Assembly: GCA_023269635.1 (NCBI GenBank)
Contig: JAHFPN010000001.1
Coordinates: forward strand, 59,037-123,036
Source of the DNA: Hyphomicrobiales bacterium
Lineage (GTDB): Bacteria; Pseudomonadota; Alphaproteobacteria; Rhizobiales; Xanthobacteraceae
Length of the DNA: 64,000 nt
Direction: 5' to 3'
Shown: positions 13,077 through 31,401 of the stretch, in pieces
How positions within the stretch are numbered: the stretch's first letter is position 1
Layout of the letters: each line of letters starts with the position of its first letter
Program-made: the position numbers and the translations under genes
Notes under the pieces: model-generated
Databases searched by the model: none
What the model was told of the DNA's origin: nothing
The model's input: the letters and a program-made list of their open reading frames with translations, nothing else

Positions 13077-13090
13077 TTGATTCAGGTCAA
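13077..13090 (+). promoter_or_regulatory. FixK/FNR box upstream of CBS-BON gene
   Basis: TTGATTCAGGTCAA; centre ~62 nt upstream of ATG 13146. Confidence 0.72.
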
Positions 13091-17287: not shown

Positions 17288-17743
17288 ATGGAAAAACTCA
17301 AGCTCGAGAACGGCGGTTGGGTCGTGGTGTGCGACGGTCGCAAGGCGATCATCCTCAGAAACGCCGGCGACGAAACCTACCCGAATCTGAAGACCAGCGA
17401 GGTGCGCGAGCACGCCGAGCCGCCGACGCGCGATCTCGGAGCGGATAAGCCGGGTCGGGTCCATACCGCCGCGGTAAGCGGGCGCACCGTGCGGAGCACG
17501 GTCGAGCCGACGGACTGGCATGACGAGTCCGAACGCGCGTTCCTCAAGAGCCTCGCGGACCATCTCGATTCCGCCGTCACGGCGGGCAAGACCCGCGCGC
17601 TGGTCTTGATCGCCCCGGCACGCGCGCTCGGGGTCTTGCGCAAGGCGTTCTCGCCGGCGGTGAAGAGCAAGCTGCGCGCGGAAATCGAGCATGACTACGT
17701 CAAGCTTCCGGTCAGTGAGATCGAGCAACGACTTTTTCGGTGA
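17288..17743 (+). CDS. Host attachment protein family (baeRF-like)
   Basis: GGWVVVCDGRKAIILRNAGDETYPNLKTSEVREHAEPPTRDLGADKPGRVHT... FLKSLADHLDSAVTAGKTRALVLIAPARALGVLRKAFSPAVKSKLRAEIEHDYVKLPVSEIEQRL. Confidence 0.75.
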   Translation: MEKLKLENGGWVVVCDGRKAIILRNAGDETYPNLKTSEVREHAEPPTRDLGADKPGRVHTAAVSGRTVRSTVEPTDWHDESERAFLKSLADHLDSAVTAGKTRALVLIAPARALGVLRKAFSPAVKSKLRAEIEHDYVKLPVSEIEQRLFR

Positions 17744-17785
17744 AATCACAGTCCTTTAGCCAGGGCTCAAGGCAATGCGCGCGGA

Positions 17786-17799
17786 TTGATCGAAATCAA
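17786..17799 (+). promoter_or_regulatory. FixK/FNR box with no downstream ORF
   Basis: TTGATCGAAATCAA, perfect TTGAT-N4-ATCAA, between convergent genes. Confidence 0.75.
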
Positions 17800-17833
17800 A
17801 GCGCAAGGTGGCGAACGAAGGGATTTTTCTCGA

Positions 17834-17916
17834 GCGCGGGATTGTTCGCGTTTCCCCTCCCGCGGCGTTCCCCCCAGCATCCTTGAGCCCCGGCGCGTCC
17901 CGCCGGGGCTTCTTAT
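17834..17916 (+). ncRNA. Candidate small RNA under FixK/FNR control (no ORF)
   Basis: Perfect TTGATCGAAATCAA box at 17786-17799 lies between convergent genes; predicted class-II TSS ~41 nt downstream of its centre; 10-bp-stem intrinsic terminator at 17886-17917. 5' boundary inferred only. Confidence 0.4.
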
Positions 17917-17917
17917 T
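17886..17917 (+). terminator. Rho-independent terminator
   Basis: agccccggcg-cgtcc-cgccggggct followed by tcttatt: 10-bp perfect stem, 5-nt loop, T-rich tail. Confidence 0.75.
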
Positions 17918-17967
17918 CGCCATCGGAGCCGTGATTGGCAGGCTGGGCTGTTTTGTATCCGATTCGA

Positions 17968-18387
17968 TTACAGATGACCCAGCTCGAACTCTTCGCACGA
18001 GCAATCGAACGCAGCGAGGCCTTCTTCGAGGAGGTCCGGCAACAGCGGCATGCCGAGAAGGTAACTCGCGGTCCGCTTGTTGTGCGCCCGCGCCGCTTCC
18101 CCCCGGATTTCCTTCCAATCGACAATCGTGCCGTCGCCGCGGCCGAGCCAGGCGAGCGCCACCAGGTCGATCTGTTCGTCCTCGCTCAACATGTCGATGA
18201 CCGACTTGAGCTCGACATAGGTCGGGTCGTCGGGATGATCCTCGAGCACCGTGCGCATGGCGTCGTCGGCAGCGCTCGAACTCGAATCGGGATCGGTGAC
18301 CACATCCTTGACGTCGAATTCGCGCGCCTTCATCACGATGAAGCAGACCTTCTCGGGCGAAATGGATAGAGCGGGGCTCGCCTTCAT
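17968..18387 (-). CDS. DUF3775-like protein
   Basis: MKASPALSISPEKVCFIVMKAREFDVKD...DDPTYVELKSVIDMLSEDEQIDLVALAWLGRGDG; pattern of DUF3775 proteins. Confidence 0.65.
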   Translation of the reverse strand: MKASPALSISPEKVCFIVMKAREFDVKDVVTDPDSSSSAADDAMRTVLEDHPDDPTYVELKSVIDMLSEDEQIDLVALAWLGRGDGTIVDWKEIRGEAARAHNKRTASYLLGMPLLPDLLEEGLAAFDCSCEEFELGHL

Positions 18388-18845
18388 AGCACCACCGCCT
18401 TCTTCTCCGACTGCCCCTGGGACGGCCACAGTTTCCGCAAGTCGGCGGGCAGCGCCTGGCGAACGTCCCTGATCTCGCCGCCCGAGATCAAGTCTGACAA
18501 TAAGTGAAATACGGAAATCACCGCGAACTCGGTGTCGGCCAGCGGGTCGGTGACAAAGGCGGCATCAACCCGCGCTAGGAACGTCGCCTTGCTCCTATCC
18601 TTGGTCGGCACCGTGGCCGGGCGCCAATGCTCGTAATAGACGCCGCGCAAGAGCGTCGGAAGCTGCGCGGCCAGATCCACGGCCTCGTTCACCTGCAGCC
18701 AGTCGCGCAAGGCGTGGAGCACCGTGCGCAGCAGCCGGTAGCTGCGCGGCTTATTGCTCCACTTGAGCCGCGCATCAAGGTCGTTGATCCACGCATGCGT
18801 GAGCTGCACCGTGTGATCGATGCTTTCGAGTCCAACCGCGCTCAT
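18384..18845 (-). CDS. DUF2267-like protein
   Basis: TVQLTHAWINDLDARLKWSNKPRSYRLLRTVLHALRDWLQVNEAVDLAAQLPTLLRGVYYEHWRP; characteristic of DUF2267. Confidence 0.75.
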   Translation of the reverse strand: MSAVGLESIDHTVQLTHAWINDLDARLKWSNKPRSYRLLRTVLHALRDWLQVNEAVDLAAQLPTLLRGVYYEHWRPATVPTKDRSKATFLARVDAAFVTDPLADTEFAVISVFHLLSDLISGGEIRDVRQALPADLRKLWPSQGQSEKKAVVL

Positions 18846-18899: not shown

Positions 18900-18913
18900 T
18901 TGAGATAGGTCAA
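18900..18913 (-). promoter_or_regulatory. FixK2-type box upstream of DUF2267 gene
   Basis: TTGAGATAGGTCAA fits TTGM-N6-KCAA; centre ~61 nt upstream of ATG 18845. Confidence 0.6.
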
Positions 18914-27046: not shown

Positions 27047-27454
27047 CTAGCTCGTTGGCGCGGCCGGCCGGCTCAAGGCTTCGCGGATGCTGTCGATGAG
27101 CACGTTGCCGAACAGCGGCTTCTCGACGATGTGCACGCCTGCGTCCGCCGCGCGCTTCCGCAGGATCTGGTTGGGGTGCGAAGTGATCAGGAGCGCGGGG
27201 GCCTTGACCTTGCGCTCTCGCAATTTCTGCAGGACCTCGAGCCCATCCATGTCGGGAAGGCGAAAGTCGATGACCAGGCACCCGGTATTGGCGAGCGAGG
27301 ATGAATTCAGCACTTCGCGCCCGGTACGATAACCCAGGACCGACATTCCCTCGATTTCCAACGCGAACTTCAGGGAATTCAACACCGCCGGATCATCGTC
27401 GATCACGACGATTGCGGCGCCCTGGGCCGGCACCTTTGCTCCATCGAACTTCAT
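27047..27454 (-). CDS. Orphan single-domain response regulator (receiver only)
   Basis: AAIVVIDDDPAVLNSLKFALEIEGM...LVIDFRLPDMDGLEVL...LLITSHPN...HIVEKPL: acidic pocket, phospho-Asp, Ser and Lys all present; no output domain. Confidence 0.88.
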   Translation of the reverse strand: MKFDGAKVPAQGAAIVVIDDDPAVLNSLKFALEIEGMSVLGYRTGREVLNSSSLANTGCLVIDFRLPDMDGLEVLQKLRERKVKAPALLITSHPNQILRKRAADAGVHIVEKPLFGNVLIDSIREALSRPAAPTS

Positions 27455-27533
27455 CGCCTGACCGTCCGGGGCAAACGCGAGACAATTGCCATCCAATAAC
27501 TGCCAATTTGCCGCAGATTCTCGGATTGCCGCC

Positions 27534-27547
27534 TTGATCTATCTCAA
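27534..27547 (-). promoter_or_regulatory. FixK2-type box upstream of orphan receiver gene
   Basis: TTGATCTATCTCAA; centre ~86 nt upstream of ATG 27454. Confidence 0.6.
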
Positions 27548-27592
27548 GCGGCGACGGTGGCGGCTGGGCCGGGCCGGTCCTCGGCGTTCACT

Positions 27593-28219
27593 TCAATCGG
27601 CGGCAGTGGCGAGGGTGCCCGAGATCAGCGCCATCCGGACCAGCTCCGAAAGGCTCCCGGCCTCCATCTTCGTCATCACATTGGCGCGGTAAATCTCCAC
27701 CGTGCGCGGGCTGATGCCGAGATCAAAGGCGATCACCTTGTTGGCTTTGCCGGAGATGAGGCCGTCGAGCACCTGCCGTTCACGGTTCGACAGAGCCGCG
27801 AGCCGGGCCTGGATCGCGGCTTTGTCCACCCCGAGCTTGGCGTCCTTCTCGTTGCGTTGCAGCGCGGTACGGACGGAAGCCAGCAGGGCGTCGTCGTCAT
27901 AGGGCTTCTCGAAGAAATCCACAGCCCCGATCTTCATGGCTTCCACCGCGAGCGGAATGTCGCCGTGGCCGGTGATCACGATGACGGGGAGGCCGGTCCC
28001 CGATGCTCTCAGGTGCCGCAGCAGATCGATGCCGCTCATGTCCGGCATCCGTACGTCGGTGATCACACATCCTGCGGCGGAGGCAGGCAGCGCCTTGATG
28101 AAGTCGGCGGCCGATTCGTGGGTACGCACCGGAAGCGACGCCGCCTCGAGCAGGAATTTCAGCGAATTCCGCGCGGCTTCATCATCGTCGATGACATGAA
28201 TGATGGCCTCACTGCGCAT
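27593..28219 (-). CDS. fixJ: FixJ-type LuxR-family response regulator
   Basis: [22 protein letters not shown]...[20 protein letters not shown]...[12 protein letters not shown] + [46 protein letters not shown]; overlaps fixL. Confidence 0.93.
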
Positions 28220-29750
28220 CGGCGAATTCCTCTTTGCTTACGGTTCGAAGCGTGAAGCGGAATACCGAGCCCCCGCCCGGATTGGGCTCGACCGAAATCT
28301 CTCCGCCGTGGGATTCGACGATGGTGCGCGAGATCGAGAGGCCCACGCCCATCCCGTGCGGCTTGGTGGTGATGAACGGCTGAAACAGCTGAGCGGAGAT
28401 TTCCGGCGAGATGCCGGGGCCGGTGTCCGAAACAATGATCGCAACCATCGAGTTGCTCGTCGGCTCGGAACGGACGATGAGCTCGCGGCGGCGCGATCCC
28501 TCCATCGCCTCGATGGCGTTCCGCATCAGGTTGAGCAAGACCTGCTGCACCTGGACCTTGTCCGCGAGCACGAGGTCGACCGCCGGCTCGAATTGGAACC
28601 TCACCCGCACGCCGAGTTCCTTGGCGCCCACAAGCGCGAGCGCGCTTGCCTCCTCGGCGAGCTTGGTAATGCTCTCGACCCGCCGCTCACTCTCGCCGCG
28701 GGCCACGAAGTCGCGCAGCCGTCGGATGATCTGGCCGGCCCGCATCGCCTGCTCGGCGGCCTTGTCCATGGCGTCGCGCAGCGTGGCCGATCGCGGGTCG
28801 GGGCTCACCTCCAGCAGTCGCCGGGACCCCTTCATGTAGTTGGCGATCGCCGACAGCGGTTGATTGAGCTCGTGCGCCAGCGCCGAGGCCATCTCGCCGA
28901 GGGCGGTGAGCCGGGAAATATGCACGAGCTCGGACTGCAACTCCTGGAGCCTCACCTCGGTTTGCTGCCGCTCGGTCAAATCGCGGATGAAGCCGGTGAA
29001 GAAACGCTGATCGCCGGATTTCATCTCGCCGACGGCGAGTTCGATCGGAAACGTCGAGCCGTCCTTGCGTTCGCCGACGACCACGCGGCCGATGCCGATG
29101 ATCCGCCGCTCGCCCGTCTTCAGGTAGCGATCGACATGGCTGTCGTGATTCTCCCGATACGGCGAGGGCATCAGCATCTTGACGTTGCGGCCGATCGCCT
29201 CGGCCGCCGAATAGCCGAACAGCCGCTCGGCGGCGAGGCTGAAGGATTGGATGATGCCGCGCTCGTCGATGACGATCATCGCGTCGGGCACCGTGTCGAG
29301 GATCGACTTCACATGCGCCTCGCGCGCCAAGAGATCGCGCGTGGAGGCGGCGGAACGGGTTCGACTGCGGTGCAGACCCTCGCCGACCAGCGCCATGCCG
29401 ATCCCGACCACCGCGAATGCTGCCGCACTGATGAGCTCGGGGCGATCGAGACCGGTGGCGTATTGGAACGCCAGGGTGAGCAACAGGGCGAGCGCGGTCG
29501 CGAGCAGACCGGGCCCGAGACCGCCGAGCGAGCTCGCGAGCAACACGGCCGGGGCATAGAACAGGTAGCGGGCTTCGCTTCCGACCAGCGCCGCCAGCGC
29601 CGACTGGGCGGCAAACGCGATCGCGACCAGCATCAGCGCCAGCACGTAACTCGCCGCGCCGGCGCGTCCGCTGTCGGCGACGCCCTTCGAAACGAATTTG
29701 GTGCTCCGCGCGGTCAAGTCGGTCATCGAGGCAAGTCGACTATCAAGCAA
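28209..29750 (-). CDS. fixL: FixL oxygen-sensing haem-PAS histidine kinase, membrane-anchored
   Basis: N-terminal hydrophobic TM block; PAS segment [27 protein letters not shown] preserves haem His and the two Arg at the spacing known for B. japonicum FixL H200/R206/R220; kinase H-box [25 protein letters not shown]. Confidence 0.93.
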
Positions 29751-29906
29751 GGTGCCGAAGATTTGCGGTTGGGAAAAGGCTTGGTTCTGCTCGTACGCGA
29801 TGATTATAGCCGCTCTTCCGGGATTCCCCTTATGGACAAGACCTGAATTCCGGGCCCGCGCATTGGCCGATATTCACCAGACCAACCCAACTCGGAGGAC
29901 CCGGCG

Positions 29907-30617
29907 ATGCTCACTCGGACCCTAGCCGAACCCCATACGCCCCGGACCCGCGTTTCCAATCCAGCGCCCGTCGCGAGCGCCCGTTCCCAGCCGGCCATCG
30001 GCGGGGGCCCATTGGCCGAGGTCATCGCCCTTTGTGGCGCCTTGATGTCGTTTCGGCGCAACGAGGAAATCTACGGCGAGGATGAACCGGCCGATTACGT
30101 CTACCAGGTGAAGAGCGGCGCGGTCCGGACCTACAAGCTCCTGAATGACGGCCGCCGCCAGATCGGCGCCTTTCATCTGCCGGGCGATATCTTCGGCCTG
30201 GAAGCCGGGAACGAGCACCGCCTCACGGCCGAGGCGATCTCCGACGCCACCGTCATCGTGATCAAGCGCGGCACGCTCGTTTCGCAGGCCGCGCGCAACG
30301 TCGAGATCGCCCGCGAGCTCTGGGCCTTCACCGCGCGCGCCCTCGAGCACTTGCAGAACCTGATGCTCCTGCTCGGGCGCAAGAACGCCCAGGAGCGCGT
30401 GGCCGCCTTCCTGCTCGAAATGGCAAGCCGCGCACCCGAGGCCGGCGCGGTCGAATTGCCGATGTCGCGGCAGGATATCGCCGACTATCTCGGCCTCACC
30501 ATCGAGACGGTCTCGCGCACGCTCACCCAGCTCGAGAACGCGGCGACCATCGAGCTGCCGAGCTCGCGGCGGATCCTGCTGCGGAACCGCACGGCGCTCC
30601 GCCAACTCAACGCCTGA
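29907..30617 (+). CDS. fixK: FixK/FNR-like Crp-family regulator
   Basis: cNMP-like domain VKSGAVRTYKLLNDGRRQIGAFHLPGDIFGLE and HTH MSRQDIADYLGLTIETVSRTLTQLEN (E-SR recognition helix); no N-terminal FNR-type Cys cluster. Confidence 0.9.
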   Translation: MLTRTLAEPHTPRTRVSNPAPVASARSQPAIGGGPLAEVIALCGALMSFRRNEEIYGEDEPADYVYQVKSGAVRTYKLLNDGRRQIGAFHLPGDIFGLEAGNEHRLTAEAISDATVIVIKRGTLVSQAARNVEIARELWAFTARALEHLQNLMLLLGRKNAQERVAAFLLEMASRAPEAGAVELPMSRQDIADYLGLTIETVSRTLTQLENAATIELPSSRRILLRNRTALRQLNA

Positions 30618-30705
30618 GGCTTCGGTGAAAGTAGTCGCATTCAATCGGGTTCAAGGAGCCGGACGTCCGAGCGGAGAATCGGACGTGCCGGAGAGGAGAC
30701 GACCC

Positions 30706-31401
30706 ATGCGAGCCCGCGACGTAATGACTACGCACGTGATCACCGTGGGGCCCGATGCGACGATCCAGGAAGTCGCGCAGCTCCTGCTCAAGCACCGATT
30801 TAGCGCCGTGCCGGTCGTCGACCGGCAGGGCGAACTCGTCGGCATCGTCAGCGAAGGCGACCTCTTGCGCCGCGCCGAAGTCGGGACCGATCGCCGCCGC
30901 GCCTGGTGGCTCCGGCTCCTGACCGGTGCCGAGACGCTCGCGGCCGACTACGTGAAGTCGCACTCTCGCAAGGCATCGGACGTGATGACGAAGCGCGTGA
31001 TCACCGCGACATCAGATACGCCGCTCAGCAAGATCGCGACGTTGCTCGAACGGAACTCGATCAAGCGCGTGCCCGTCGTCGATGAAGGCAAGCTGGTCGG
31101 CATCGTGACCCGGGCCAATCTCGTCCAGGCCTTCGCAACAATGCACAAGGAAGCCGCGCCCGAAGTGGCGCCGAACGACTCGGCGATCCGCGAGAAGCTA
31201 CTCGCGCAGCTGCGCACGGAGCCGTGGGCGCAATCCTGGCAGCTCAACGTGACCGTGAAGGACGGGGTCGTGGATCTCTGGGGCGTGGTGAGCTCGGATG
31301 CGGAGCGGAAAGCAGTCCGGGTCGCCGCCGAGAATACGCCGGCGGTGCGCGCGGTGAACGACCACCTGGTTCAGCAGCCGACTCAGAGCTGGGCTTATTG
31401 A
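30706..31401 (+). CDS. CBS-pair + BON domain protein (paralogue of 13146-13838)
   Basis: MRARDVMTTHVITVGPDATIQEVAQLLLKHRFSAVPVVDRQGELVGIVSEGDLL...; C-term BON. Confidence 0.9.
   Translation: MRARDVMTTHVITVGPDATIQEVAQLLLKHRFSAVPVVDRQGELVGIVSEGDLLRRAEVGTDRRRAWWLRLLTGAETLAADYVKSHSRKASDVMTKRVITATSDTPLSKIATLLERNSIKRVPVVDEGKLVGIVTRANLVQAFATMHKEAAPEVAPNDSAIREKLLAQLRTEPWAQSWQLNVTVKDGVVDLWGVVSSDAERKAVRVAAENTPAVRAVNDHLVQQPTQSWAY

Follow-up and report, generated by a model that had tools for sequence, protein, structure and literature searches.

The convergent gap and its genome setting

The window, by which we mean the whole 64-kb stretch of DNA analyzed, is part of a 2.67-Mb MAG that is 83% complete and represents an isolated lineage of uncultured alphaproteobacterium. 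It contains an intergenic gap of 224 nt (17744 to 17967) flanked by converging genes (Table 1), of which the Host_attach gene is the last of a Lon-like/Usp-like/Host_attach series. The preliminary description gave the coordinates of the locus correctly, and both of the converging flanks that it named are real, as each has a Pfam match and normal G+C by codon position. It also saw no credible ORF between them, and the codon-position G+C, Pfam, and Shine-Dalgarno checks all argue against one. ORFs of 63 and 130 amino acids in the gap region were rejected as genes on their noncoding G+C periodicity, and no Pfam match was found for the 130-aa ORF. A 14-codon TTG frame at 17842, ending at the terminator, was rejected for its lack of a Shine-Dalgarno sequence.

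The best-covered relatives of the MAG belong to the same family, and no same-genus genome was among the matches of any relative search. Host_attach homologues with 54 to 57% identity were the sole matches in one scan of GTDB genome contigs. Because all five named Host_attach loci from that scan are Bradyrhizobium, the MAG belongs near this genus.

Table 1. Positions of genes, boxes, and predicted elements in the window
Feature	Position	Strand	Remarks
FixK/FNR-type boxes of the window (six)	8640, 13077, 17786, 18900, 21788, 27534
Host_attach/baeRF family 12 gene	17288-17743	+	Upstream flank; Pfam match
FixK/FNR-type box TTGATCGAAATCAA	17786-17799	symmetric	43 nt past the Host_attach stop codon
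Weak -10-like hexamer GATTTT	17822-17827	+	-12 to -7 if start is box center + 41.5
Predicted sRNA, ~80-84 nt	17834-17917	+	Predicted 5' end; 3' end at terminator
Short hairpin CGCG-UUUCCCCUCC-CGCG	17847-17864	+	4-bp stem; first C-rich tract in loop
Second C-rich tract TTCCCCCCAG	17868-17877	+	Aligned to UUUCCUCCCUAG core of RF00519
Intrinsic terminator	17886-17917	+	10-bp stem, 5-nt loop, tail TCTTATT
DUF3775 gene	17968-18387	-	Converging flank; Pfam match
DUF2267 gene	18384-18845		Precedes DUF3775; pair's own box at 18900-18913
PAS/HisKA histidine kinase gene	28209-29750	-
fixK-like CRP/FNR regulator gene	29907-30617	+	Best NCBIfam model FixK NF050806

Low-oxygen regulatory context

The box in the gap is a perfect TTGAT-N4-ATCAA, so the FNR/FixK palindrome of the preliminary description is an exact match and lies where it had been placed. 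Exact TTGATNNNNATCAA sites occur twice in the 64-kb window, versus an average of 0.1 for palindromes with these letters permuted. Genome-wide, there are 38 TTGAYNNNNRTCAA boxes versus 2 for the reversed pattern, a count from the same genome that gives only a rough background, as a reversed box is no FixK site. The reversed control is an improper null for pattern searches in relatives and was left unused there.

The window boxes adjoin nitroreductase-like, CBS/BON, DUF2267-DUF3775, acyl-CoA ligase/GNAT, and response-regulator genes. The box at 18900 is positioned to drive DUF2267/DUF3775 and that at 13077 is positioned for a CBS/BON gene. The genome also encodes a candidate activator of its own, the fixK-like gene, which scores 256.8 bits to its best model, below the cutoff of 300. 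Its product is probably the activator acting on the box in the gap. This gene and the PAS/HisKA kinase gene lie 10 to 12 kb from the gap, and the window is a low-oxygen island. The fixL/fixK-like cluster extends from 27047 to 30617 and includes a response regulator gene (27047 to 27493, minus strand) with the box at 27534; a CBS/BON gene (30625 to 31401) comes after the fixK-like gene.

In relatives, a FixK-like box (TTGATCTCGCGCAA, TTGCGCAGGATCAA, and similar) is frequent upstream of Host_attach/baeRF12 genes (L006 to L034 and L095 to L099). This suggests that the family is widely under low-oxygen regulation, and the upstream boxes are therefore in keeping with the low-oxygen setting of the gap.

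Promoter, terminator, and predicted RNA

The GATTTT hexamer begins exactly 23 nt past the box, which is the class II position. TAnnnT hexamers peak at 22 to 23 nt from the end of the other boxes (8 and 3 of 74 sides), and this peak corresponds to class II spacing. GATTTT matches TATAAT at three of six bases, retaining the -11 A and the -7 T and losing the first T. A motif model fitted to the other boxes gives it 1.4, which is at background level (for random sequence, the 90% quantile lies at 2.8). The putative promoter at 17786 to 17827 is rightly placed, but its sequence is no proof of it.

The terminator that the preliminary description reported about 90 nt 3' of the box is present, with arms at 17886 to 17895 and 17901 to 17910, a loop at 17896 to 17900, and a tail at 17911 to 17917. 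Nine of its ten pairs are G-C. It is predicted to work on the plus strand only, with the T run absent on the minus side. Scanned strictly on both strands, the 64 kb yielded seven hairpins, including this one. A nine-G-C-pair hairpin with a T-rich tail within 300 nt was found at 1 of the 38 boxes, that at 17786 alone. At six of them, a hairpin-plus-T site of some kind lay within 300 nt to one side or the other, and this means little against the approximately 2.6 expected from local density. The tail, UCUUAUU in the RNA, has fewer U residues than genuine alpha-r8 RNAs of relatives have in theirs. The terminator could equally well end the Lon-Usp-Host_attach operon.

The predicted RNA folds at -38.2 kcal/mol (z of -3.3), mostly owing to the terminator. 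The C-rich tracts that had been described for it, TTTCCCCTCCCG and TTCCCCCCAG, are both present, and a 52-nt stretch with equal C-run richness occurs at 0.05% of window positions. The energies calculated for duplexes with 18 start regions in the window singled out no target; they ignore accessibility and were discarded.

Conservation in relatives

Conservation of the box was set beforehand as a refutation test of the proposed sRNA, and the outcome was negative. The unit of box, C-rich stretch, and terminator was not found in any of approximately 300 relatives' genomes, and a box downstream of the Host_attach gene was found at 0 of 34 homologue loci. A DNA search of 101 genomes with the gap and one of 300 genomes with the gap core each yielded the query itself together with terminators of ordinary genes or coding sequence, for example, ...FLERGIVR.... 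With a covariance model built from the single sequence (R1), ordinary gene terminators only were found in 300 genomes. The pattern of a box plus a GCCCC..GGGGCTT terminator, sought in 349 genomes, matched in three others besides the query genome. The match within the family (L167) was rejected as a homologue: a phaC promoter box stands beside an Hsp20 terminator on the opposite strand. Of the matches to a box plus CCCTCC in 250 genomes, those inspected were likewise rejected as ordinary gene promoters. A plasmid search matched none. The absent conservation is not decisive because the collections include no genome close to this organism. The unit may be lineage specific, and conservation is neither for nor against function.

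Two further arrangements were seen in other genomes. At L067 and L068 (approximately 1501 to 1612; two genomes of one genus), an FNR-like box is followed by a leader with CCCTCC and then GGAGGGGGAGG before an ATG; by folding back, this leader could mask the ribosome-binding site of the gene at that oxygen-type promoter. At G004:C481:17675-17753 (minus strand; L156, 1501 to 1579), CCCCCCACCCTCC lies in a hairpin loop and is followed by a GCCCCGCCG terminator. This locus of a relative resembles a C-rich sRNA, and a perfect FixK box is absent.

Relationship to known sRNAs

No Rfam family reached its gathering cutoff in the window. The closest family is RF00519 (MmgR/alpha-r8), which matches the candidate over its full length at 24.6 bits (E value of 0.002 to 0.004 over all families), short of the gathering score of 41 bits. 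An RF00519 search of the genome passes over the locus at first look, and the 24.6 bits come from separate scoring. A canonical MmgR/alpha-r8 RNA in the same genome (G000:C138:22225-22301; L198, 1501 to 1577) scores 69.1 bits. The stretch GCCCTyCTTGGGCGTTTCCTCCCTAGACTTGGGCCG hardly varies among 29 alpha-r8 sequences from the order; tandem alpha-r8 copies occur in several genomes. The single-stranded core of MmgR/alpha-r8, UUUCCUCCCU, lies downstream of a weak hairpin (PMC12559287). This core, which is invariant in the 29 sequences, is absent from the candidate, in which the aligned stretch is GUUCCCCCCA; the candidate itself has CCCTCCCGCGGCGTTCCCCCCAGCATCCTTGAGCC. Alignment of the candidate to the alpha-r8 consensus scores 27, a value matched by 0.9 to 1.2% of shuffles of its own letters, and 19 terminator-bearing control loci score at most 23. 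With an nhmmer alpha-r8 profile, the candidate scores 0.1 bits, which approximately 4% of shuffles reach.

The candidate is similar to MmgR/alpha-r8/SisA-D in its length (approximately 77 to 84 nt) and in the order of a C-rich anti-Shine-Dalgarno stretch and then a terminator, which is Rho independent as in the family. However, it lacks the invariant core and remains below the family cutoff. Much of the likeness to RF00519 is compositional, arising from a terminator together with C-richness. The preliminary description proposed a resemblance to CCUCC-motif sRNAs, and this holds as an analogy but not as family membership; the candidate may work as an alpha-r8 RNA does, and we do not file it as a member. 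No FixK-type box was found at promoter distance before any of the 30 alpha-r8 copies examined, and a response of MmgR to NtrC and AniA has been reported (PMC7143759). To alpha-r14 (RF02344, NfeR1), another alphaproteobacterial sRNA family, the candidate scores 17.2 bits, far under the cutoff of 58.8. Elsewhere in the genome, a subthreshold RF00519 match of 27.8 bits (G000:C161:28641-28718, minus strand; L199, 1501 to 1578) has a GCCTCCCTG stretch and a good terminator and is possibly a further C-rich sRNA; a FixK box is absent upstream.

FNR-regulated sRNAs are a kind already known. FnrS of Escherichia coli, the classical example, is an FNR-activated, terminator-ended, trans-acting intergenic sRNA (PMC8139620). 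The candidate shares with it a predicted activation of FNR type, an end at a terminator, and an intergenic site, but differs in having no Rfam FnrS match, C-rich pairing regions, and FixK in place of FNR. In Rhodobacter sphaeroides, ChIP-seq showed that FnrL binds the promoter regions of the sRNA genes RSs0019 and RSs2461, the effect on their levels being unmeasured in that study, and some FnrL sites were at no known gene (PMC4263372). As with RSs0019 and RSs2461, the candidate would be an alphaproteobacterial sRNA gene with a promoter site for the FNR family, but it is known from prediction only. No characterized FixK-activated sRNA was found in the searches of open-license papers.

Interpretation of the locus

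The best single reading, which we hold tentatively and at somewhat less than an even chance, is that the gap encodes a FixK-activated anti-Shine-Dalgarno sRNA, a plausible orphan. The box, the class II spacing, the C-rich stretch of approximately 50 nt, the strong terminator, the missing ORF, and the fixK-like gene support the preliminary description in part on this point, but the unit is not conserved. The sequence itself shows these elements, their spacing, and the low-oxygen setting. We infer that FixK (or FNR), which probably comes from the fixK-like gene, would bind the box when oxygen is low and bring RNA polymerase to a class II promoter whose -10 is weak, giving a start near 17834. Transcription would end at the hairpin at 17886 to 17910 and yield an RNA of approximately 80 nt, whose C-rich tracts, one of them borne on a loop, could pair with G-rich Shine-Dalgarno sequences. 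Such pairing, probably aided by Hfq, would lower the translation of some mRNAs at low oxygen, and the terminator of the sRNA would also stop transcripts reading through from the Host_attach operon.

This reading is favored by the excess of boxes (38 versus 2), the six boxes in the window, and the nearby fixK-like and kinase genes. It is further favored by the unique GC hairpin with its T tail, the position of GATTTT, the density of C runs, the full-length but subthreshold MmgR/alpha-r8 match, and the FnrL precedent (PMC4263372). The missing conservation, the weak -10, and the U-poor tail speak against it, as do duplex energies that yield no target and the fact that a convergent gap would be expected to hold a terminator in any case; with a MAG that is 83% complete and whose lineage is isolated, close testing of conservation is limited.

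An ordinary 3' end ranks close behind the sRNA and is a serious, if less probable, explanation. The terminator would then close the Lon-like/Usp-like/Host_attach operon, and the box would be due to chance, a relic, or bound by FixK without giving a transcript. The hairpin is indeed the sole intrinsic terminator after Host_attach, the -10 is weak, no relative has a box at that place, and the FnrL sites at no known gene (PMC4263372) offer a parallel. However, the stop codon and the hairpin are 143 nt apart, which is long, and the C-rich stretch is unusual; the approximately 2 chance boxes genome-wide are mostly expected in coding DNA, which makes a chance intergenic box unlikely.

It is unlikely that RNase E cuts the segment from the Host_attach operon mRNA, with or without an internal FixK promoter, as a 3'UTR-derived sRNA. 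The sense orientation, the place directly after the operon, and the shared terminator agree with this origin, and such sRNAs are known in alphaproteobacteria, UdsC of Rhodobacter sphaeroides being an example. But a full class II box between the stop codon and the RNA body would be needless for processing alone. Still less likely is a diverged alpha-r8-like anti-Shine-Dalgarno sRNA, a regulator of nutrient type duplicated and rewired to FixK and oxygen in this lineage.

We consider it very unlikely that the box drives the minus strand and so yields an RNA antisense to the 3' end of Host_attach. The box is symmetric and a GCTAAA hexamer is present on the minus side, but at 26 nt from the box, the start of this hexamer misses the 22- to 23-nt TAnnnT peak; the minus side also scores at background (1.1 with the same motif model), and the strict hairpin scan found no terminator for the region on that strand. 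Least probable of all is a coding function, as a very small protein from the frame at 17842 or as a gene in the longer frame at 17808, since these frames exist but no Shine-Dalgarno sequence is present, codon-position G+C is noncoding, the 130-aa frame has no Pfam match, and the 17808 frame extends antisense across DUF3775.

With evidence from a single genome, the FixK-activated sRNA is a candidate to be listed and not a discovery. Its expression would give the FixLJ-FixK low-oxygen cascade an sRNA arm. sRNAs of the FNR type allow a transcriptional activator to repress as well, and for a rhizobial-type FixK cascade this is a testable question.
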